A stretch of DNA of 14,881 bases. Source: an uncultured Bacteroidota bacterium. Lineage in GTDB: Bacteria; Bacteroidota; Bacteroidia; Chitinophagales; Chitinophagaceae. This document shows, one piece after another, positions 2,354 through 14,075 of the stretch. The notes under the pieces were generated by a model. That model saw only the letters and a list, made by a program, of their open reading frames with translations. It made no database searches and was not told the origin of the DNA. The first letter of the stretch is position 1. Each line of letters starts with the position of its first letter. Both the position numbers and the translations under genes were made by a program. The DNA lies in NCBI GenBank assembly GCA_903906615.1, contig CAIVKT010000535.1, forward strand, positions 1 through 14,881, given 5' to 3'.

Positions 2354-2621
2354 CCCAGACCCTTCTAAAGGAGTCCGTTTGGTTGAGTTGCTTCATCAGC
2401 GCGAGGGTGTTGGTGGGACACCAACACCGGCGGGAGAAGCGGAACCTTGTGCCGGACGCGAGTACAACCCCTACCCTAAAGGGGGAAGTTTGGTTGAGTT
2501 GCTTCATCAATATAAGTGAGTTAATACCTACAGAAAAAATTAAAAAATTTGAGGCACGCAATGGCTCCCGGCACAAGGTCCCGCTTTTTAAACGGGCGGG
2601 TAGGGGTTGTAATCGCGCTAT
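2354..2621. repeat. Intergenic mosaic of direct and inverted repeats
   Basis: This gene-free region is built from repeated pieces. A perfect 22-base direct repeat sits at 2377-2398 and 2488-2509, 111 bases apart, both preceded by a related CTAAAGG motif. Two inverted pairs link the left half to the right half: 2437-2455 with 2568-2586 (18 of 19 pairs) and 2457-2476 with 2598-2617 (19 of 20 pairs). The arms occur in the order A-B-A'-B', so they cannot all pair as one nested stem. A separate perfect hairpin is at 2406-2428. Long frames across it on both strands contain no recognisable protein and are repeat artefacts. It probably consists of several inserted or rearranged copies of a genomic repeat family. 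Confidence 0.8.
2406..2428. repeat. Perfect 10-bp hairpin with 3-nt loop
   Basis: GGTGTTGGTG (2406-2415) pairs perfectly with CACCAACACC (2419-2428) around a GGA loop. No T-run follows on either strand, so it is not a standard intrinsic terminator, although it lies 53 bases after the flippase stop codon and could stall polymerase or protect the 3' end. It sits between the two copies of the 22-base direct repeat. Confidence 0.75.
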
Positions 2622-3032
2622 TCACAATCCCAAGTCTTTAACTTTTATCTCCTCCCCGCTTCTCCTGATAAAGTGTATCAGGTTCCTATCATTCCAGGAA
2701 CGAAGAATGTCCAGAGTAAGTTTAGTGTGGCCATTGAAGGAAAGATGTATATCGCGTTCATGACAAAAAAGTAACTGCACCTCCATTTCTTTAATCACGA
2801 TGTACACATCATTACCGGGAAATTCGTTTTCCCGTGATTTATACGTCTCAACTTCAGACATAATGTTTGTTGCATTAGTGTCAAAAGAGGTCCAGTCGCC
2901 CCATGACCAGCCAAAATACATCTCTACATTGGTAATATTATTTTTCAGTAGTTGTTTAAGTACAATATCCATTTCAGCCAGAAAATACCGATCATCCATC
3001 ATGGGTGTATATACTTCTGTAGCTAATTCCAT
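2622..3032 (-). CDS. Hypothetical protein, AT-rich, downstream of priA
   Basis: This 136-residue, soluble, acidic protein has no signal peptide or membrane segment and I do not recognise its family. It has an N-terminal helical-looking part (about 12-31, FLAEMDIVLKQLLKNN), a Trp-rich motif (about 40-48, YFGWSWGDW) and a strand-like region with VQLLFCHERDIHLSF (about 84-98). Its DNA is poorer in GC (about 35-42% in sampled lines) than priA and the flippase. It follows priA on the same strand after a 26-base A+T gap, so it may be read through from priA. Size, composition and its place beside a repeat mosaic would fit a recently acquired accessory protein, for example an orphan immunity-type protein, but that is only a guess. 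Confidence 0.6.
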   Translation of the reverse strand: MELATEVYTPMMDDRYFLAEMDIVLKQLLKNNITNVEMYFGWSWGDWTSFDTNATNIMSEVETYKSRENEFPGNDVYIVIKEMEVQLLFCHERDIHLSFNGHTKLTLDILRSWNDRNLIHFIRRSGEEIKVKDLGL

Positions 3033-3058
3033 GGTTTACTATTTTTTAAAATAAAAAA

Positions 3059-5625: not shown

Positions 5626-5633
5626 TAGTTTTG
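5626..5633 (+). promoter_or_regulatory. Bacteroidota -7 promoter box of the efflux operon
   Basis: TAGTTTTG matches TAnnTTTG exactly. The T-rich run at 5603-5609 occupies roughly the -33 region but is not a clear TTTG. A transcript from here would start near 5640, next to the ATG at 5642, so the mRNA would be leaderless or nearly so. The GTG at 5633 overlaps the box and is an unlikely start. Confidence 0.6.
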
Positions 5634-5641
5634 TGCCCGAA

Positions 5642-6262
5642 ATGGAACCGTTAACCAAAATACTGACCTCATCCGCCGAATTGTTTAGCCAATATGGCTT
5701 TAAAACAATTACGATGGATGATATTGCCCGCCGGGCGGGTATTTCTAAAAAAACGCTTTACCAGCATTTTGCCAATAAGCAGGAGGTCGTGAATGAATCT
5801 GTTATGTGGTATCAAAACCATATGGCAGAAAGTTGCCAGATGCAGATAAAGGATGCCATGGATGCCATAGATGCCATGGTACAGATGATCGCTTTTATGG
5901 ATGAGACCCACAAGCGCATCAACCCTATGGCGTTATTTGAAATGCAACGCTTCTTCCCGGAAGCCTACAACACATTCAGGGAACAGCTATCTATTCGTGA
6001 TGTTGCCATGATCCGGGAGAATATAGAACAGGGCATGAAAGAAGGCATATACCGCGAGGGGCTGAATGCCGACCTGCTGGCGAGGTACCGTGTGGAATCG
6101 TCCCTGCTCATACTACAGCCCAACCTGCTGGTGAATGACCGCAGCGACCTGATGTCGGTGGCCCTGGAAGTTGCCGAGCATTTTATGTATGGCATTATGA
6201 ATACAAAGGGAGAAGCACTTTATCAGAAATACAAAACAAAATATTTAAAGCAAGCAAAATAA
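5642..6262 (+). CDS. TetR/AcrR-family transcriptional repressor of the efflux operon
   Basis: The 206-residue protein has the TetR layout. An N-terminal helix-turn-helix region lies at about residues 24-50 (ITMDDIARRAGISKKTLYQH, ending FANKQEVV), and an all-helical C-terminal domain would bind ligand and dimerise. By family knowledge such proteins repress an adjacent pump and release DNA when an effector, often the pump substrate, binds. I place the start at the ATG at 5642 rather than the GTG at 5633, because the GTG overlaps the -7 promoter box. It is first in the operon and only 4 bases separate its stop from the channel gene. A 28-base palindrome upstream is its likely operator. The effector is not predictable from sequence. 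Confidence 0.9.
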   Translation: MEPLTKILTSSAELFSQYGFKTITMDDIARRAGISKKTLYQHFANKQEVVNESVMWYQNHMAESCQMQIKDAMDAIDAMVQMIAFMDETHKRINPMALFEMQRFFPEAYNTFREQLSIRDVAMIRENIEQGMKEGIYREGLNADLLARYRVESSLLILQPNLLVNDRSDLMSVALEVAEHFMYGIMNTKGEALYQKYKTKYLKQAK

Positions 6263-6266
6263 ATTT

Positions 6267-7622
6267 ATGAGAAGACTCTGTATCATATTATTAGGTGTTC
6301 TTTCCTTTTCTTCAGCAACCTATGCGCAGGAAACCATGCGGATGAGCCTGAATGAATGTATGGACTATGCCCTGAAACATAACTACAACGTGAAGAACGC
6401 ACGTATAGATGTACTCATTCAGACCATTCAGAATAAAGAGACACTTTCCGCTTCTTACCCGCATATTAACGGCAAAGCCGAATTTGATGATTTTTACGTT
6501 CCCCAAAGTACATTCATTGACGCCAGCACCTTCGCCTTTCCGGGCACACCGGCTGCGCCAAAAGGCACTATTGAAGCACTCAACTTCACACTGCCATATG
6601 CCGCCTCCGCCAGCGTTACCACCTCACAGCTTTTATTTGACGGAGCTGTATTTGTAGCATGGAAAGCCCGCAACAGTGTATTGGAATTTGCCCACAAAAA
6701 TCAGGAGGTGACCGAAGAGAACATACGGTACAACATATATAAATCGTACAATTCTCTTGTTATTGCCTACCGGCAGTATAGCATTGTCAGTAGTTCCCTG
6801 TCTTATGCGCGCAGCTTGCAGCACGACCTGGAAGTAACCCGCCAGAACGGGTTTGCCGAAAAAATTGACGTTGAACGCACCGATGTACAGGTTAACAACC
6901 TGGCAACTGACAGCATCAGTATAGGTAATATGCTGACGATATCAGAAGATGCGTTGAAGTACCAGATAGGTATGGACATGAGCAATAAACTCGTGCTTAC
7001 CGACACGATGGTGGAAGAACGTAAGCAAGCTGCTCTTGACTTGCTGGTGCAGGAAAAAAGCTATGATCGCGTGCCGGAATACAGCGCCCTTACATCTGCA
7101 CTTACGCTGAACCAGTACAACCTGAAACGTTACCAGCTTTCCGCACTGCCATCGCTCAATGCGTTCTGGTCTTATGGATCAAATTATGGATCTACGAGGG
7201 CCAGTGATATGTTCCTGTTCAACAGATATTCACCAAGCTCTGTAATTGGCATCCAGCTCAATGTGCCGATCTATAACGGTTCATTAAGGCACTATCAGGT
7301 GCAGGAGGCGAAGATGAATATTGAAAAATCGGAAAATAACCTGGCTAATATGAAGCAAACTATAGATTTCCAGGTTTCGCAGTCGCGTACCACATTAAAG
7401 AATGCCATACTGCAGGCTCAAAGTCAGCACCGCAATATGGACCTCGCAGATGATGTGCTGGACCTTGCCCAAAAGAAGTACAAAGCCGGAGTGGGCAGCA
7501 ACCTCGAAGTAACACAAGCACAAACCGATCAACTTCGCGCGCAGACGAATTATTTTAATGCCCTGCTGGATATTATCAACGCAGAAGCCGACCTGAAAAA
7601 AGCACTTGGCCTTTTAAAATAA
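6267..7622 (+). CDS. TolC-family outer membrane efflux channel
   Basis: The 451-residue product begins with a Sec signal peptide (MRRLCIILLGVLSFSSATYAQ, cleavage likely after TYA) and continues with MSLNECMDYALKHNYNVKNA, the helical opening of outer membrane efflux proteins. Two such repeats are visible: the first half about 25-220, and the second about 250-451, ending with a long helical stretch containing DLAQKKYKAGVGSNLEVTQA. In the family three subunits form a beta-barrel in the outer membrane and a long alpha-helical tunnel in the periplasm that docks with the adaptor and RND pump. It starts 4 bases after the tetR stop, so translational coupling is likely, and it ends 65 bases before the adaptor gene, a gap holding an 18-base palindrome. 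Confidence 0.93.
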   Translation: MRRLCIILLGVLSFSSATYAQETMRMSLNECMDYALKHNYNVKNARIDVLIQTIQNKETLSASYPHINGKAEFDDFYVPQSTFIDASTFAFPGTPAAPKGTIEALNFTLPYAASASVTTSQLLFDGAVFVAWKARNSVLEFAHKNQEVTEENIRYNIYKSYNSLVIAYRQYSIVSSSLSYARSLQHDLEVTRQNGFAEKIDVERTDVQVNNLATDSISIGNMLTISEDALKYQIGMDMSNKLVLTDTMVEERKQAALDLLVQEKSYDRVPEYSALTSALTLNQYNLKRYQLSALPSLNAFWSYGSNYGSTRASDMFLFNRYSPSSVIGIQLNVPIYNGSLRHYQVQEAKMNIEKSENNLANMKQTIDFQVSQSRTTLKNAILQAQSQHRNMDLADDVLDLAQKKYKAGVGSNLEVTQAQTDQLRAQTNYFNALLDIINAEADLKKALGLLK

Positions 7623-7640
7623 CCCATATTCACTAACGAC

Positions 7641-7658
7641 TCCCGATAGCTATCGGGA
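7641..7658. repeat. Perfect 18-bp palindrome between channel and adaptor genes
   Basis: TCCCGATAGCTATCGGGA is a perfect palindrome in the 65-base gap between the tolC-like and adaptor genes. As RNA it could form a short stem, but no T-run follows, so it is not a standard terminator. I recall similar CCCGATAGCTATCGGG motifs in intergenic DNA of Bacteroidota, so it may be a copy of a dispersed short palindrome. Within the operon it could lower downstream expression or define an mRNA processing site. Confidence 0.75.
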
Positions 7659-7687
7659 CTAACAACTAAACTTCTAAACATAAGATA

Positions 7688-8800
7688 ATGAAACGTTTAT
7701 TCCTTTTACTTGTTCCCGCGATCATCCTGGCATCCTGCGGCGGTGGCAAAACCGATAAGACCGGCAACTTAGCCAAGCTGAAAGCAGAACGCGCCAAGCT
7801 GGACGAACAGATAAAAACACTGGAAGGCCCGGGCAGCGATACCTCGAAGAAGGCCACAGCAATATCTGTAATGACCTTACAGCCTACCGACTTTGTGGCT
7901 ACTATCAATGTGCAGTCGCAGATCACCGGCGACCAGAATATATATGCCAGCCCGCAAGCCGCTGGTATTGTGAATAATATATTGGTGCATACGGGCGAGC
8001 ATGTGGCTAAAGGTCAGGTACTTGCAATACTTGATGCAGCCGCTATACAGCAACAGATAGACGGCCAGCAAACACAGTTGACCCTTGCAAAAACCGTATA
8101 TGAAAAGCAAAAAAACCTCTGGTCACAGAATATAGGTACCGAGGTGCAGCTTTTACAGGCCAAGGCAAACTACGAAACAGCACAAAGCCAGTTGGCAGGT
8201 CTTGTAGTGCAAAAAAATATGTACCGGATAGTATCGCCGATAACCGGCGTTATAGACCAGATGACGCTGAAGGTAGGTGACATAGCATCTCCCGGATCAG
8301 GAACATCGCAAAGTTCAGCAAGCATCATACGCGTAGTGAACACCGATAAGCTGAAAGCTGAAGCCAACCTGGGTGAGAACTACCTTGGCAAGGTGAAGAG
8401 CGGCAACAAAGTGACGCTCATATTCCCGGATATCAACGACTCTATTAAAACCACGCTGAGCTATGTGGCAGAAGCAGTGGACCCTAACTCCCGCGCCTTT
8501 GTAGTGCAAGTGCAATTGCATGATGCTAAACTGCACCCCAACATGTCGTGCATCATGGAGATAGCCAACTACGAAAGCAAGAACTCGCTGGTAGTACCCA
8601 TATCAGTGATACAGAAAACAAGCAAGGGCGAGATGTTGTACGTGGTTGATGGAGACAAGGCCAAGGCTGTATATGTAAAGACCGGCGCTAACTCAAATGG
8701 CAGCGTAGAGATACTATCGGGCCTGCATGCAGGTGATAAGATCATCACTGCCGGCTTCGAAGACCTGGACAATGGCGACCCTATATCTGTACAACAGTAA
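7688..8800 (+). CDS. RND efflux periplasmic adaptor (membrane fusion lipoprotein)
   Basis: The 370-residue protein starts with a lipoprotein signal, MKRLFLLLVPAIILASC, with C17 as the lipidated residue, so it is anchored in a membrane facing the periplasm. A short coiled-coil-like segment (about 29-47) follows. Then come a biotinyl-lipoyl half (about 85-120), a helical hairpin (about 120-170, rich in Q, A, K and L), the second lipoyl half (KNMYRIVSPITGVID, about 176-190), a beta-barrel domain (about 215-290) and a membrane-proximal domain to the end. This is the standard order in the HlyD/AcrA family, which bridges RND permease and TolC channel. It lies between those two partners in the operon, 65 bases after the channel gene and 40 before the permease gene. 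Confidence 0.94.
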   Translation: MKRLFLLLVPAIILASCGGGKTDKTGNLAKLKAERAKLDEQIKTLEGPGSDTSKKATAISVMTLQPTDFVATINVQSQITGDQNIYASPQAAGIVNNILVHTGEHVAKGQVLAILDAAAIQQQIDGQQTQLTLAKTVYEKQKNLWSQNIGTEVQLLQAKANYETAQSQLAGLVVQKNMYRIVSPITGVIDQMTLKVGDIASPGSGTSQSSASIIRVVNTDKLKAEANLGENYLGKVKSGNKVTLIFPDINDSIKTTLSYVAEAVDPNSRAFVVQVQLHDAKLHPNMSCIMEIANYESKNSLVVPISVIQKTSKGEMLYVVDGDKAKAVYVKTGANSNGSVEILSGLHAGDKIITAGFEDLDNGDPISVQQ

Positions 8801-8840
8801 GCATACACATCATTTTTACTTTAGCAGCTAATCATTATAC

Positions 8841-11800
8841 ATGAAAGACGCATTTAAGGAGTTTAAACCATCCAGTTGGGCGATAGATAACCGCACCGCG
8901 GTATACATTATCACCATCTTCATTACCCTCGCGGGCCTGGTCACTTACCTTACTCTGCCCAAGGAGCAGTTCCCCGAGATCAAGATACCGCAGATCATTG
9001 TACAGACCTACTTCCCCGGCACATCGCCGGAGAATATGGAGAACCTGGTGACCAAGCACCTGGAAAAGCAAATGAAGAACCTTACCGGCATCAAGAAGGT
9101 GACCAGTAATTCCTTCCAGGACTACTCGGTAGTGATAGCGGAATTCAATACTAATGTGCAGGTAGATAAAGCCAAGCAGGATGTAAAGGATGCCGTAGAC
9201 AAGGCCAAGACCGATCTGCCCAAGAACCTGCCCAACCAGCCGGAGGTAAAAGACATAGACCTCTCGGAGGTGCCGATATTGAACGTGAACATATCCGGCA
9301 ACTACGACCTGAACAGGCTGAAGAAATACGCCGACCGCATCAAGGACAATATAGAGGCCATGAAGCAGATCAAGCGCGTGGACATTGTAGGCGCGCTGGA
9401 CAGGGAGATACAGATAAACATGGACATGTATAAAATGCAGGCTGCGGGCATCACCTTCGGAGATGTGCAAAATACTGTTGCTGCTGAGAACGTGTCAGCC
9501 ACTGCGGGCCAGGTGACCATGGGTACACAAAAGCGCCTGCTGAGCATAAAGGATGAATTCAAGTCGGCAGCCGAAATAGCCAATGTGGTGGTGAAAAGCC
9601 AGCAGGGCAAGGCTGTGTACCTGCGCGATATAGCACAGGTAACAGACAGCTTCCAGGAGCAGAAGAGCTATGCCCGCCTCGATGGCGCTAATGTGATCAC
9701 CCTGAACGTGATCAAGGCCAAGGGCGAGAACCTGATTGAAGCGTCGGACAATATCACGGCGCTGATGGCTAAGATGTCGGGTACAGAATTACCCAAAGAC
9801 CTGAAGATAGTGATCACCGGCGACCAGTCGGAGAAAACAAAGTCTACCCTTACAGACCTTGTCAATACCATCATTATCGGTTTTATCCTTGTTACGGTTA
9901 TCCTCATGTTCTTCATGGGTGTTACCAATGCGCTTTTCGTGGCCATGTCAGTTCCGCTTTCCTGTGCTGTGGCCTTCCTGGTGCTGCCTACTATTGGCTT
10001 CACTATGAATATGATCGTGCTGTTCTCCTTCCTGCTGGCGCTGGGTATAGTGGTGGATGATGCTATCGTGGTGATAGAGAATACCCACCGTATTTTTGAT
10101 AACGGTAAGATACCTATAGCACAGGCGGCCAAGTTTGCCACCGGCGAGGTGTTCCTGCCCGTGCTGGCCGGTACTGCTACTACGCTGATGCCGTTTATCC
10201 CACTGGCCTTCTGGCCCGGCATTGTAGGCAACTTCTTATTTTATTTACCCATCACCCTCATCATTACCCTCGTGGCATCGCTGCTGGTAGCCTATATCAT
10301 CAACCCCGTATTCGCGGCCAGTTTCATGAAGCCCCACGACTTTGATCATGAGAATGATAAGCCACGTTTCACTAAGAAAGACAGGGCGCTGGCAGTTATT
10401 TTCCTGTCTATCGCGGCTATCTGCTACCTATGCTCGGCTATTGGCACAGGCAACTTTGTAGTGTTCATATTCCTGTTCATCCTTCTGGAGAAATTTGTGC
10501 TGGCCAAAGGGATACATGCTTTCCAGAACAAGTATTGGCCTGCCTTCCAGAACTGGTATACGCGCTGGCTGAAGAAAGCGCTGGCCTATCCCGGCACGGT
10601 GATGGCGGGTACACTGGTGCTTTGCGTATTGGCTATGGTATTATTTATTATGCACGGCCCTACGCCTGTGTTCTTCCCCGCATCGCAGCCCAACTTCACT
10701 TATGTGTACCTGAACCTGCCCGTGGGCACCGACCAGGCGCATACCAATGATGTATTGCTGCAACTGGAAAAGCGTGTGAATGATGCCGTTATAGACCCTG
10801 CCACGCACAAGCGCTTTGTATCTGTGAAATCGGTGATCGCCAACGTAACGGTGGGCGCAGTAGATCCTAACAGCGGAGAGATCGGCGACTTCCCAAATAA
10901 GGGTAAGATAACAGTAGCCTACGAAGAATTCTCGAAGCGCAAAGGCGAATCTACCGTAGCCATTATGGAGAAGATACGTAATTCTGTAAAGGGCGTGCCC
11001 GGTGCAGAGATAACCGTAGACAAAGAAAGCAGCGGCCCGCCCGTGGGCAAGCCGGTAGTTATAGAAATGACCGGCGATAACCTGGATACCCTGGTGAATG
11101 TATCGGAAAGATTGAAGCGGTACCTGGTAGAGAAGCAGATACCTGGTATAGAAGAGCTGCGCAGCGACTTCCAGGCCAAGAACCCGGAGATCGTCTTCGA
11201 CCTGGACCGCGAACGTATGAACTCGGAAGGCATCACCACCACTACCGTAGTGAACAACCTGCGTACAGCAGTATTCGGTACCGAGATATCCCGTTTCCGC
11301 GATCAGAATGATGATTACCCGATGACACTGCGCGTGATCGGCACAGAGCGGCAGGATATAGATGCCATACGCAATATGCCTATCGTGTACCGCGATATGG
11401 GCTTGGGAGGTATCATTCGTTCGGTGCCTATCAGCGCCTTTGCCAATGTTTATTATTCTACTACCTATGGCGGTATTAAGCGCAAGAATGAGAAGCGGTA
11501 TATCAGCCTGTCTTCTAACGTGATCAGTGGCTTTAACGCTAATGAAGTGGTGGCTAATGTGAAGACCGAACTCAGCCAATTCAAATTGCCATCAGGCATA
11601 GTGCTGAAAATGGGCGGCGACCAGGAAGACCAGGCAGAGACCATGAGCTTCCTCGGTAAGGCTTTCGGTATAGCTATGGCGCTCATCTTCATGATACTTA
11701 TACTGCTCTTCAACTCCATCAGTAAAACGATGATCATACTGAGCGAAGTATTGTTCAGCCTCTTTGGTGTGTTCCTGGGCCTGGGCATCTTTAAGACGCC

Positions 11801-12635
11801 ATTCTCTATAGCCATAAGCGGTATAGGTATTGTGGCCCTTGCAGGTGTGGTGGTGCGAAACGGGATATTGCTGGTAGAGTTTATGGACCTGATGCTGAAA
11901 GAAGGCATGAGCGAGATAGATGCCATCATAGAATCGGGACGTACGCGTATGACACCGGTATTGCTTACGGCGATAGCTGCGATACTGGGCCTTATACCGC
12001 TTGCTGTGGGTATGAACATTGATTTTGCTTCCTTGTTCCAGCACCTGAACCCGCACGTGTTCTTCGGCGGCGATAGCGCCGACTTCTGGGCGCCGCTCGC
12101 ATGGACCATGATCTATGGCCTCAGCTTCGCTACCTTCCTCACACTTATAGTAGTGCCTGTGATGCTGTTGCTCAGCTTCCGCTTCAAGGCGTGGATCAAG
12201 CGATTGTTTAGCAATAAGCAAGTTGCATCAATTAGCCCTACAACATATGCTTCTTTCTGGTCTCGGCTAGGAGCGTTAGTTATCGATATTATCGTACTTA
12301 TGATACCGGTAGTGATTATTGTGTTGGCTTTAGGTAGTGATGCTCAGTTTTTAAAAGTAATTGTGATACTCCTTATCAGTTTATTCTATCGTACTATCAT
12401 GGAATCTAGTAAGTTCATGGGCACCCTTGGGAAAAATGCTATGGGAATCATTGTGACAGATGTAGATGGTAATAGAATTACATTCCAGAAAGCATTGGGT
12501 AGAAATTTGGGTAAGTATATTTCCGGAGCTATATTAGATATCGGCTACTTGATGATGATATGGAGTGATAAAAAACAGACATTGCATGATAAAATTGCAG
12601 GCACTGTTGTAGTCAAGAGTAATTATCTGCCATAG
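8841..12635 (+). CDS. RND efflux permease (HAE-type) with C-terminal RDD domain fusion
   Basis: The 1264-residue protein is an inner-membrane proton-driven RND pump joined to an RDD domain. The RND part (about 1-1122) has the first membrane segment near 18-38, porter domains, and TM4 with the adjacent proton-relay aspartates D406 and D407 (VVDDAIVVIENT). TM10 has VVVRNGILLVEF with R1006 where AcrB has its essential lysine K940. Between the two six-helix halves is an insert of about 60 residues (about 497-560) with two extra hydrophobic stretches. From about 1136 on the sequence is a complete RDD domain: FWSRLGALVIDIIVL (R1142, D1149), then GTLGKNAMGIIVTD and an end with KQTLHDKIAGTVVV. The RDD-coding DNA is about 37% GC against about 50% just before it. 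The substrate is unknown. An intrinsic terminator follows. Confidence 0.93.
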   Translation: MKDAFKEFKPSSWAIDNRTAVYIITIFITLAGLVTYLTLPKEQFPEIKIPQIIVQTYFPGTSPENMENLVTKHLEKQMKNLTGIKKVTSNSFQDYSVVIAEFNTNVQVDKAKQDVKDAVDKAKTDLPKNLPNQPEVKDIDLSEVPILNVNISGNYDLNRLKKYADRIKDNIEAMKQIKRVDIVGALDREIQINMDMYKMQAAGITFGDVQNTVAAENVSATAGQVTMGTQKRLLSIKDEFKSAAEIANVVVKSQQGKAVYLRDIAQVTDSFQEQKSYARLDGANVITLNVIKAKGENLIEASDNITALMAKMSGTELPKDLKIVITGDQSEKTKSTLTDLVNTIIIGFILVTVILMFFMGVTNALFVAMSVPLSCAVAFLVLPTIGFTMNMIVLFSFLLALGIVVDDAIVVIENTHRIFDNGKIPIAQAAKFATGEVFLPVLAGTATTLMPFIPLAFWPGIVGNFLFYLPITLIITLVASLLVAYIINPVFAASFMKPHDFDHENDKPRFTKKDRALAVIFLSIAAICYLCSAIGTGNFVVFIFLFILLEKFVLAKGIHAFQNKYWPAFQNWYTRWLKKALAYPGTVMAGTLVLCVLAMVLFIMHGPTPVFFPASQPNFTYVYLNLPVGTDQAHTNDVLLQLEKRVNDAVIDPATHKRFVSVKSVIANVTVGAVDPNSGEIGDFPNKGKITVAYEEFSKRKGESTVAIMEKIRNSVKGVPGAEITVDKESSGPPVGKPVVIEMTGDNLDTLVNVSERLKRYLVEKQIPGIEELRSDFQAKNPEIVFDLDRERMNSEGITTTTVVNNLRTAVFGTEISRFRDQNDDYPMTLRVIGTERQDIDAIRNMPIVYRDMGLGGIIRSVPISAFANVYYSTTYGGIKRKNEKRYISLSSNVISGFNANEVVANVKTELSQFKLPSGIVLKMGGDQEDQAETMSFLGKAFGIAMALIFMILILLFNSISKTMIILSEVLFSLFGVFLGLGIFKTPFSIAISGIGIVALAGVVVRNGILLVEFMDLMLKEGMSEIDAIIESGRTRMTPVLLTAIAAILGLIPLAVGMNIDFASLFQHLNPHVFFGGDSADFWAPLAWTMIYGLSFATFLTLIVVPVMLLLSFRFKAWIKRLFSNKQVASISPTTYASFWSRLGALVIDIIVLMIPVVIIVLALGSDAQFLKVIVILLISLFYRTIMESSKFMGTLGKNAMGIIVTDVDGNRITFQKALGRNLGKYISGAILDIGYLMMIWSDKKQTLHDKIAGTVVVKSNYLP
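12210..12635 (+). other. AT-rich segment encoding the RDD domain of the permease
   Basis: By hand count 12241-12480 is 88 of 240 G+C (about 37%), while two sampled 60-base lines of the RND part just upstream (12001-12060 and 12121-12180) are 29 and 30 of 60. The change falls at the junction between the last RND residues (WIKRLFSNKQ) and the RDD start. The frame stays open across it. This suggests that the RDD module joined the permease gene later than the rest. Confidence 0.7.
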
Positions 12636-12650
12636 ATTTCCATTGTCCTG

Positions 12651-12695
12651 AAAGCAGAAGGGGCTGTCTGAAAAGATAGCCCCTTCTGCTTTTTT
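12651..12695 (+). terminator. Intrinsic terminator of the efflux operon
   Basis: A 15-base perfect stem pairs 12651-12665 with 12678-12692 (core GCAGAAGGGGCT with AGCCCCTTCTGC) around a 12-base loop, and six T residues run from 12690 to 12695. It starts 15 bases after the permease stop codon and separates the operon from the convergent antitoxin-like gene ending at 12707. The shorter A-run on the other side might give some activity for the opposite strand too. Confidence 0.9.
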
Positions 12696-12706
12696 GTAAG
12701 ATGACC

Positions 12707-12943
12707 TTATCGGGTTATTTCTTTGTCCAGTTCAATGAACAGACCTTCTATATCTTCAATAGACTCGAGATCATCTTCAATAGCTTTCAACCTTCTATCT
12801 ATCATGTCCTTTTGCCATTGAGGTATATCACTGTCTAAATCGTCCACATCGGGATATTTAGTTTTAATTTTTCTCCAATCGCCAATGGATATTTGCACCG
12901 CAATGGTTTCTCCCGTGTTGTCTGAAACATAATTAACCGACAT
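12707..12943 (-). CDS. Small antitoxin-like protein without partner toxin
   Basis: The frame can begin at a TTG at 12952, but I prefer the ATG at 12943, giving 78 residues (MSVNYVSDNTGETIAVQISI and onward). A beta-strand-like N-terminus with GETIAVQISIGDWRKIK (about 11-27) is followed by an acidic linker and the helical segment PQWQKDMIDRRLKAIEDD (about 40-57). This arrangement resembles the small Bacteroidota addiction-module antitoxins that precede RelE/ParE toxins (typically PEWHKxxLDERL). No toxin gene follows: only 15 bases separate its stop from the terminator. It may be an orphan antitoxin or a small protein of other function. The DNA is about 37% GC in a sampled line. An exact -7 box lies 18 bases upstream of the ATG. 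Confidence 0.6.
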   Translation of the reverse strand: MSVNYVSDNTGETIAVQISIGDWRKIKTKYPDVDDLDSDIPQWQKDMIDRRLKAIEDDLESIEDIEGLFIELDKEITR

Positions 12944-12960
12944 AAAAATCAATTTACAGG

Positions 12961-12968
12961 CAAAAATA
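12961..12968 (-). promoter_or_regulatory. -7 promoter box for the antitoxin-like gene
   Basis: On the minus strand this reads TATTTTTG, an exact TAnnTTTG match. Transcription would start near 12954, which lies upstream of the ATG at 12943 but overlaps the alternative TTG at 12952. This supports the ATG as the start. The region at -33 is T-rich without a clear TTTG. Confidence 0.5.
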
Positions 12969-12987
12969 AACCTTGTATAAAATTAAG

Positions 12988-13019
12988 AAAAATCGAACAC
13001 AATACTGCGTGCGATTTTT
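12988..13019 (-). terminator. Probable terminator of the aldo/keto reductase gene
   Basis: AAAAATCG (12988-12995) and CGATTTTT (13012-13019) are exact reverse complements around a 16-base interior in which GTG and CAC can add three pairs. On the minus strand the stem is followed by a T-rich stretch. It lies about 20 bases beyond the end of the reductase gene, so it would separate this gene from the antitoxin-like gene. Confidence 0.6.
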
Positions 13020-13040
13020 AATATTCTACCTATAAAGAGG

Positions 13041-14075
13041 TTATTTTTTAGCCTGGTTCAGCGTCCTGTCTCCACTCTGCCGCTCTACCATCCAGCCGGG
13101 GTATTCTTTTGGTAAAGCGCTTACTTCATTAAGTTGTTTCAGTTCCTCATCAGATAGCTGTATAGACGTAGAGTGGATATTGTCCTTCAGTTGTTCTACT
13201 TTCCTGGCGCCAATGATGGTGCTGGTGATACCCAACTGGCGGCGCACCCATGCCAGCGCCACGGCGGCTACAGATGTTTTATGCGCTTTGCTTATCGGGT
13301 CCATTATTTCTATGATGTCGTAAGCCTTCTCTTTATTTATCGGCGGAAAGTCGAAGTTATCCCTGCGGCCACCGGCATTCTTTTCATTCTCCCTTGTATA
13401 CTTACCACTGAGGAAGCCACCTGCCAGCGGGCTCCAGGGCATTACTGCCAGGTTCTGGTCTATGGCCATTGGCAGCACCTCGCGCTCTATATCGCGGCCA
13501 GCTATGGAATAGTAGTATTGCAGCCCTTCAAATTTATTCCAGCCATGCTGTGCCGCTATGCCTTGCGCCTTCATCACCATCCATGCCGGCCAGTTGCACA
13601 CTGCTATGTAGCGCACCTTGCCTGAGGCTACTACATCATTCAGGGCGCGCATGGTTTGCTCCAGTGGCGTCAGCGGGTCTACGCCATGCACATACAGTAT
13701 GTCTATGTGATCCATCTGCAGGCGTTGCAGGCTTTCATCTACCGATTGCAGTATGTGGTAGCGGCTCAGGCCTGCATTGTTTTGTCCTTCGCCCATACGG
13801 CCACGCACCTTGGTGGCTATGACCAGGTCGTTGCGTTTGATGCCGAGATTTTTTATAGCGCAGCCCAGCAGATGCTCCGATTGGCCGTAAGAGTATACAT
13901 TGGCCGTGTCTATGAAGTTAATGCCGCCGTCTACCGCGCATTTGATCAGTTCATCGGCCTGTGCCTGTTCCAGGCCGCCTATGTTTTTCCATATACCATC
14001 GCCGCCAAAGGTCATAGTGCCAAAGCAAAGCTCTGATACCACAAGGCCGGTATTTCCTAATAAATTGTATTTCAT
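13041..14075 (-). CDS. Aldo/keto reductase
   Basis: The 344-residue protein is a full-length NADPH-dependent oxidoreductase of the aldo/keto reductase superfamily, a cytosolic (beta/alpha)8 barrel that reduces aldehydes or ketones to alcohols. The N-terminus (MKYNLLGNTGLVVSELCFGT) is characteristic. The catalytic tetrad is visible as D56 and Y61 in IDTANVYSYG, K89 in VIATKV and H130 in ILYVHGVDPL. A NADPH-binding loop with STIIGARKVEQLKDN lies near 291-305. A segment at about 210-245 has PWSPLAGGFLSGKY, seen in the branch related to beta-subunit/YajO/Tas-like enzymes, so the true substrate is uncertain. It stands alone, with its own -7 box upstream and a hairpin downstream. Confidence 0.95.
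   Translation of the reverse strand: MKYNLLGNTGLVVSELCFGTMTFGGDGIWKNIGGLEQAQADELIKCAVDGGINFIDTANVYSYGQSEHLLGCAIKNLGIKRNDLVIATKVRGRMGEGQNNAGLSRYHILQSVDESLQRLQMDHIDILYVHGVDPLTPLEQTMRALNDVVASGKVRYIAVCNWPAWMVMKAQGIAAQHGWNKFEGLQYYYSIAGRDIEREVLPMAIDQNLAVMPWSPLAGGFLSGKYTRENEKNAGGRRDNFDFPPINKEKAYDIIEIMDPISKAHKTSVAAVALAWVRRQLGITSTIIGARKVEQLKDNIHSTSIQLSDEELKQLNEVSALPKEYPGWMVERQSGDRTLNQAKK

Follow-up and report, generated by a model that had tools for sequence, protein, structure and literature searches.

An RND efflux permease fused in frame to a C-terminal RDD membrane domain in an uncultured Chitinophagaceae bacterium

RND permeases of the HAE/ACR_tran type, such as MdtB, MexK, and AcrB, and the stand-alone RDD proteins (PF06271; YckC-like) are the closest described relatives of the gene reported here, which encodes both domains in one chain. 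The gene occupies positions 8841-12635 (+) of contig CAIVKT010000535.1 (assembly GCA_903906615.1) from an uncultured Bacteroidota bacterium; the 14,881-nucleotide stretch of this contig that we analyzed is referred to as the window. The closer relatives include records named Flavipsychrobacter and Taibaiella, and the bacterium probably belongs to a genus near Flavipsychrobacter (Chitinophagaceae). The window protein resembles MdtB, MexK, and AcrB in its ACR_tran domain over residues 12-1110 and in its TetR-TolC-adaptor-permease operon, and differs from them in its C-terminal RDD. With stand-alone RDD proteins it shares a full-length profile match, the R/D/D residues, and three membrane helices in a structure model; here, however, the RDD lies behind an RND permease and forms its own clade, apart from those compared.

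RDD domains usually occur as small stand-alone proteins, but this does not define the family, and fusions of both the VanZ-RDD and the nSTAND-RDD kind exist. In the former, the RDD shares one chain with another membrane domain, VanZ, and is said to hold a cytoplasm-facing intramembrane site, for which a manuscript in preparation is cited (PMC12419801); that partner is a lipocone-family domain and not an RND pump. The RDD protein SppI is reported to form a complex with a membrane protease and to inhibit it (PMC7568657). On the RND side, AcrZ and cardiolipin are described as modulating AcrB, AcrZ being a small accessory membrane element next to the permease (PMC7267776); AcrZ is a separate small protein and has no RDD domain, and the likeness to the window protein is one of analogy only.

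A permease and an RDD domain in one reading frame

The window gene is a single uninterrupted frame with an ATG start, encoding 1264 amino acids. It had originally been predicted, from the sequence and without database searches, to be an in-frame fusion of an RND permease to a full RDD domain, and the Pfam search proposed with that prediction found both domains well above cut-off. ACR_tran (PF00873) matched residues 12-1110 (622.9 bits, cut-off 28) over positions 3-1018 of the 1021 in the profile, i.e., as a full-length RND permease, and RDD (PF06271) matched residues 1136-1254 (E 2.7e-23, cut-off 24.1 bits) over the whole profile, 1-137 of 137, which places the tail in the RDD family. The in-frame RND-RDD fusion is therefore confirmed, with the RDD, unlike the usual small protein, forming part of a 1264-amino-acid frame. 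Its two parts are as follows:

8841..12203 (+), RND permease part, residues 1-1121; ACR_tran E 1.2e-186; D406, D407, R1006, and R1036
12204..12632 (+), C-terminal linker and RDD domain, residues 1122-1264 (RDD 1136-1254); PF06271 83.2 bits; model pLDDT 88.4

The RDD hallmarks R1142 and D1149 (first helix) and the C-terminal TLHDKIAGTVVV were found where they had been predicted, along with the third hallmark residue, the Asp D1250, beside H1249. Residues R1142, D1149, K1198, R1221, H1249, and D1250 were identical in 52/52 rows of our RDD alignment (A3). A model of residues 1079-1264 was confident (per-residue confidence score, pLDDT, of 88.4) and showed an RDD with three helical membrane segments. 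When the PDB was searched by sequence with RDD profiles, one search matched nothing but kinases, at E 0.47-0.69, which we attribute to chance, and a second gave no hits.

In the RND part, D406, D407, R1006, and R1036 were invariant in a 47-row alignment (A4). We take D406 and D407 in transmembrane helix 4 (TM4), R1006 in TM10, and R1036 in TM11 to correspond to the AcrB proton relay residues D407, D408, K940, and R971, the position of K940 being occupied by Arg in this permease. The pump looks intact, and by its family it would be expected to function as one. The best solved relatives of the RND part by sequence were MdtB (9lyq) and MexK (20yy). At 1121 residues it is longer than the solved chains listed (1022-1069), and extra hydrophobic stretches were noted at about residues 513-561, ahead of TM7. 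AcrB lacks these stretches, so the permease may exceed the usual 12 helices by two, the RDD aside.

The same fused frame was present in two further assemblies, those of genomes G025 (JABDCE010000054.1; 1262 amino acids, letter for letter identical to database entry P0001) and G006 (CAIJNJ010000338.1; 1278 or 1290 amino acids, depending on the choice of start codon). Pfam detected both ACR_tran and RDD in each of these proteins. Since the frame recurs in both, we rejected an error at the junction, whether by frameshift or by misassembly, as unlikely.

Distribution and history of the RDD tail

The fusion is rare. A permease orthologue was present in 33 of 35 genomes of the genus and was fused to an RDD in three of them, namely, the window's own genome (G000), G025, and G006. 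Two genomes, both incomplete, had no close orthologue (G015 and G030), and in two others (G005 and G032) the gene was divided between contigs, its C-terminal end being unfused. The closest unfused copies (G001, G026, G020, and G028) were 85-87% identical over the RND part and ended at residues 1131-1132. A match in G026 that apparently reached residue 1159 was set aside: the frame stops at 1131, and the remainder was taken as chance. RDD remnants were looked for behind the unfused sisters, and none were found.

Among 294 sampled genomes of the family, a sample that returned neither G025 nor G006, the tail and RDD were matched together only in the window's own genome. Across the phylum, RDD was detected at E up to 1e-5 in 205 of 395 Bacteroidota genomes; among the matches listed, only the window's RDD lay in a frame of over 1000 amino acids, and only G000 C535 (1267 amino acids) and G584 C1 (839 amino acids) exceeded 350. 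A search of 5.8 billion proteins with the RDD part, limited to 0.55-1.75 times the query length and to relatives sharing short exact words, gave two hits among 249 candidates, namely, the nSTAND-RDD protein P0121 and P0001, which is the copy from G025. The copy from G006 was missing from the results, showing that this database is incomplete, and the genus, family, phylum, and protein searches together leave room for distant RND-RDD cases. We rejected the possibility that the architecture is common, as it did not show up as such in the protein search, the family genomes, or the listed phylum matches. No published description of an RND-RDD fusion was found in the literature searched either, and the initial prediction did not know it as an established architecture.

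Other arrangements were also encountered. One locus (L107) carries, at 10168-10620, a divergent stand-alone RDD gene behind an 88-amino-acid gene downstream of an unfused orthologous RND gene. The window's own genome also has a tandem pair of stand-alone RDD genes (L139, G000 C439, about 1820-2759), 40-46% identical to the fused RDD, next to a DnaG-like primase frame, the primase being recognized by eye. Distant relatives of the permease at L077, L083, L106, L114, and L116 have other C-terminal extensions with hydrophobic stretches.

The two parts of the fused proteins gave different trees. The three fused RDDs formed one clade, both against 14 stand-alone RDDs found in the genus (support 100/99) and against a set of 126 other RDDs (SH-aLRT 99), 112 of which were database hits, namely those of up to 200 amino acids among the 120 listed. 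The RND parts did not. A tree built from 22 chosen rows paired G000 with G025 (95/94) and placed G006 with the unfused G004, G021, G013, and G016, and a single clade of the three fused RND parts was rejected (approximately unbiased test, p-AU 1.2e-65); an earlier quick tree of 59 rows had left G000, G025, and the unfused G001 unresolved. The tail thus sits on two separate RND backgrounds. Within the RDD clade, the placement of G000 closer to G006 than to G025 was weakly supported (82/63). The nonsynonymous divergence (dN) of the RDD was 0.38 for G000-G025 (RND part, 0.076) and 0.33 for G000-G006 (RND part, 0.206), and the divergence of the tail therefore does not track that of its carrier. An alignment mixing RND and stand-alone RDD rows (A2) looked misaligned by its summary and was not used.

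With the RDDs in one clade and the RND parts not, these trees imply two or more gains of the tail from a single RDD lineage, its transfer between permeases, or one old fusion followed by many losses. We propose that recombination or repeated fusion spreads the tail within the genus.

The operon and the adaptor-permease tract

Genes for a TetR-family regulator, a TolC-type channel, and an adaptor lie upstream of the permease-RDD gene on the same strand. Profile matches, which place the channel and the adaptor in their families, bore out the earlier statement that the remainder of the operon is intact. The features around the fused gene are as follows:

5633..6262 (+), TetR-family regulator, 209 amino acids; Pfam TetR_N E 1.1e-15
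6267..7622 (+), TolC-type outer membrane channel, 451 amino acids; Pfam OEP E 6.2e-42; 96% amino acid identity to the nearest species, G024
7642..7657 (no strand), palindrome CCCGATAGCTATCGGG near the left edge of the putative replacement tract; identity to G024 falls there
7688..8800 (+), RND periplasmic adaptor (MFP), 370 amino acids; TIGR01730 165.2 bits (cut-off 94.9)
12650..12693 (+), strong terminator-like hairpin (-36.4 kcal/mol, z -8.7) of 20 pairs, with a T run at its 3' arm
13041..14075 (-), aldo/keto reductase, flanking the tract on the right; Pfam Aldo_ket_red E 1.3e-76

The hairpin starts about 15 bases past the stop codon of the permease-RDD gene, which suggests that the RDD tail closes the transcription unit; it was not among the matches of a simple consensus terminator scan. 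Between it and the aldo/keto reductase lies a small gene (12707-12952, -) that weakly matches an antitoxin profile (PF09720, 23.7 bits, cut-off 23.3).

Comparison with G024 set the adaptor and permease apart from their surroundings. G024 was nearest to the window by PriA, which is encoded in the window (93% amino acid identity; pair support 100/99 in a tree for which 19 genomes were used out of the 31 in the genus that had a match). Gene order was common to both, with the MATE-type gene, PriA, TetR, and TolC 92-96% identical at the amino acid level and a 152-amino-acid gene 79% identical, against 59% for the adaptor and 73% for the permease. The adaptor was 79% identical to that of G026, compared with about 60% for G024, and no RDD was found in G024 at the compared locus. 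At the nucleotide level, blocks left of the operon averaged 78-85% identity to G024 and TetR and TolC ran at 82-92% in 200-base bins, compared with 62-80% in the tract from about 7600 to 12204; the bin at 7401 still had 85% identity, the one at 7601 had 64%. Past the tract, the aldo/keto reductase was again closest to G024 (87% amino acid and 81% nucleotide identity; seven other close copies, 75-79% amino acid identity), in which it lies on another contig, near that contig's end. Farther left, 2356-3058, which contains a 136-amino-acid frame, had no counterpart in the G024 stretch compared.

On the simplest reading, the region 7600-13065, with the adaptor and the permease-RDD, looks like an allelic replacement in the window's lineage, the species relations behind this comparison resting on draft assemblies and on one housekeeping gene, PriA, which is thin evidence. 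G006 and G001 also switch neighbors between the PriA and RND trees, and exchange of adaptor-permease segments may therefore be frequent.

Possible roles of the RDD tail

We propose that the permease of a proton-driven tripartite RND efflux pump has acquired a C-terminal RDD domain that would serve the pump as a built-in accessory module. In RND permeases the C-terminal end of TM12 is cytoplasmic; the tail begins at this end, so the polar residues of the RDD could face the cytoplasm. The RDD would enter the membrane from the cytoplasmic side, adjoining TM12, and, present three times per pump trimer, would tune the transmembrane part, probably via a lipid or other inner-leaflet ligand bound at its conserved polar site. 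We liken this arrangement to AcrZ with cardiolipin acting on AcrB, and by that analogy we tentatively favor a built-in membrane modulator on an ordinary tripartite pump, at somewhat less than even confidence. In a bolder form, speculative and in our estimate unlikely, the tail would be a portable cytoplasmic-leaflet sensor or lipid-handling module passed by recombination among RND permease alleles of one genus, possibly acting as a lipid-gated regulator in every subunit of the trimer.

Several observations weigh against such a modulator. The tail was absent from 30 of the 33 orthologues, near sisters at 85-87% identity included. Of 78 unfused named loci, many of them cut by contig ends, only one (L107) had a stand-alone RDD close to the orthologous RND gene, so gene neighborhood gives no support for a shared function. 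A monomer model of residues 66-1264 (1199 residues, 47 rows) reached a pLDDT of 68 overall and of about 25-41 in the RDD, with no confident RND-RDD packing. The effect on substrate range, coupling, or assembly raised in the original prediction is a proposal. Finally, one RDD protein is reported not to need the Arg and Asp of its first helix for ion transport (PMC5996927), so that conservation alone points to no known activity.

The RDD could instead be a passenger of nearly neutral effect, a further membrane anchor that came with the fusion and leaves pumping unaffected; we consider this less likely than a modulator. Its presence in 3/33 genomes fits this, as does the pace of its evolution: dN was 0.33-0.42 for the RDD versus 0.076-0.207 for the RND part, an amino-acid change 1.6 to 5 times faster. 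However, nonsynonymous differences per site (pN, 0.27-0.32) were well under synonymous ones (pS, 0.68-0.80) between the three RDD parts, synonymous sites being saturated in two of the three pairs. Taken together, pN/pS and dN indicate a constrained coding sequence that evolves faster than the pump, and by these counts the tail is under purifying selection. The retention of the hallmark residues in all three fused copies and the occurrence of the tail on two RND backgrounds also argue against a passenger.

It is less probable still that the RDD brings ion transport of its own, coupling the pump to a second ion gradient. An RDD protein of Halobacillus andaensis has been reported as an Na+(Li+,K+)/H+ antiporter (PMC5996927). 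By spacing, its essential D154, beside a His, matches D1250, and its R35-D42 spacing of 7 equals that of R1142-D1149. Its R124/R129 fit R1221/K1225 by spacing only, but its essential D158 falls on G1254, again by spacing. Moreover, SppI is 39% identical to this protein and has all six residues, yet its deletion or overexpression is reported to have left salt and alkaline resistance unchanged (PMC7568657). That an assembly or binning artefact joined DNA of two organisms, at the RND-RDD junction or in the adaptor-permease tract, is very improbable: the genome that contains the window was assembled in 757 contigs and is 86% complete, and there is an abrupt change of identity to G024 near 7600, but the fusion occurs in three separate assemblies and the right flank again best fits G024, so that a chimeric tract would require two joins.

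RDD proteins occur widely, and little about their function is settled. A naturally occurring fusion with a pump that is well understood gives direct access to their role. The locus further points to a swapping of adaptor-permease segments and C-terminal domains between efflux operons within one genus. If the tail is indeed a portable module that modulates the pump, these proteins would represent a class of efflux pumps with a regulator built into each subunit.
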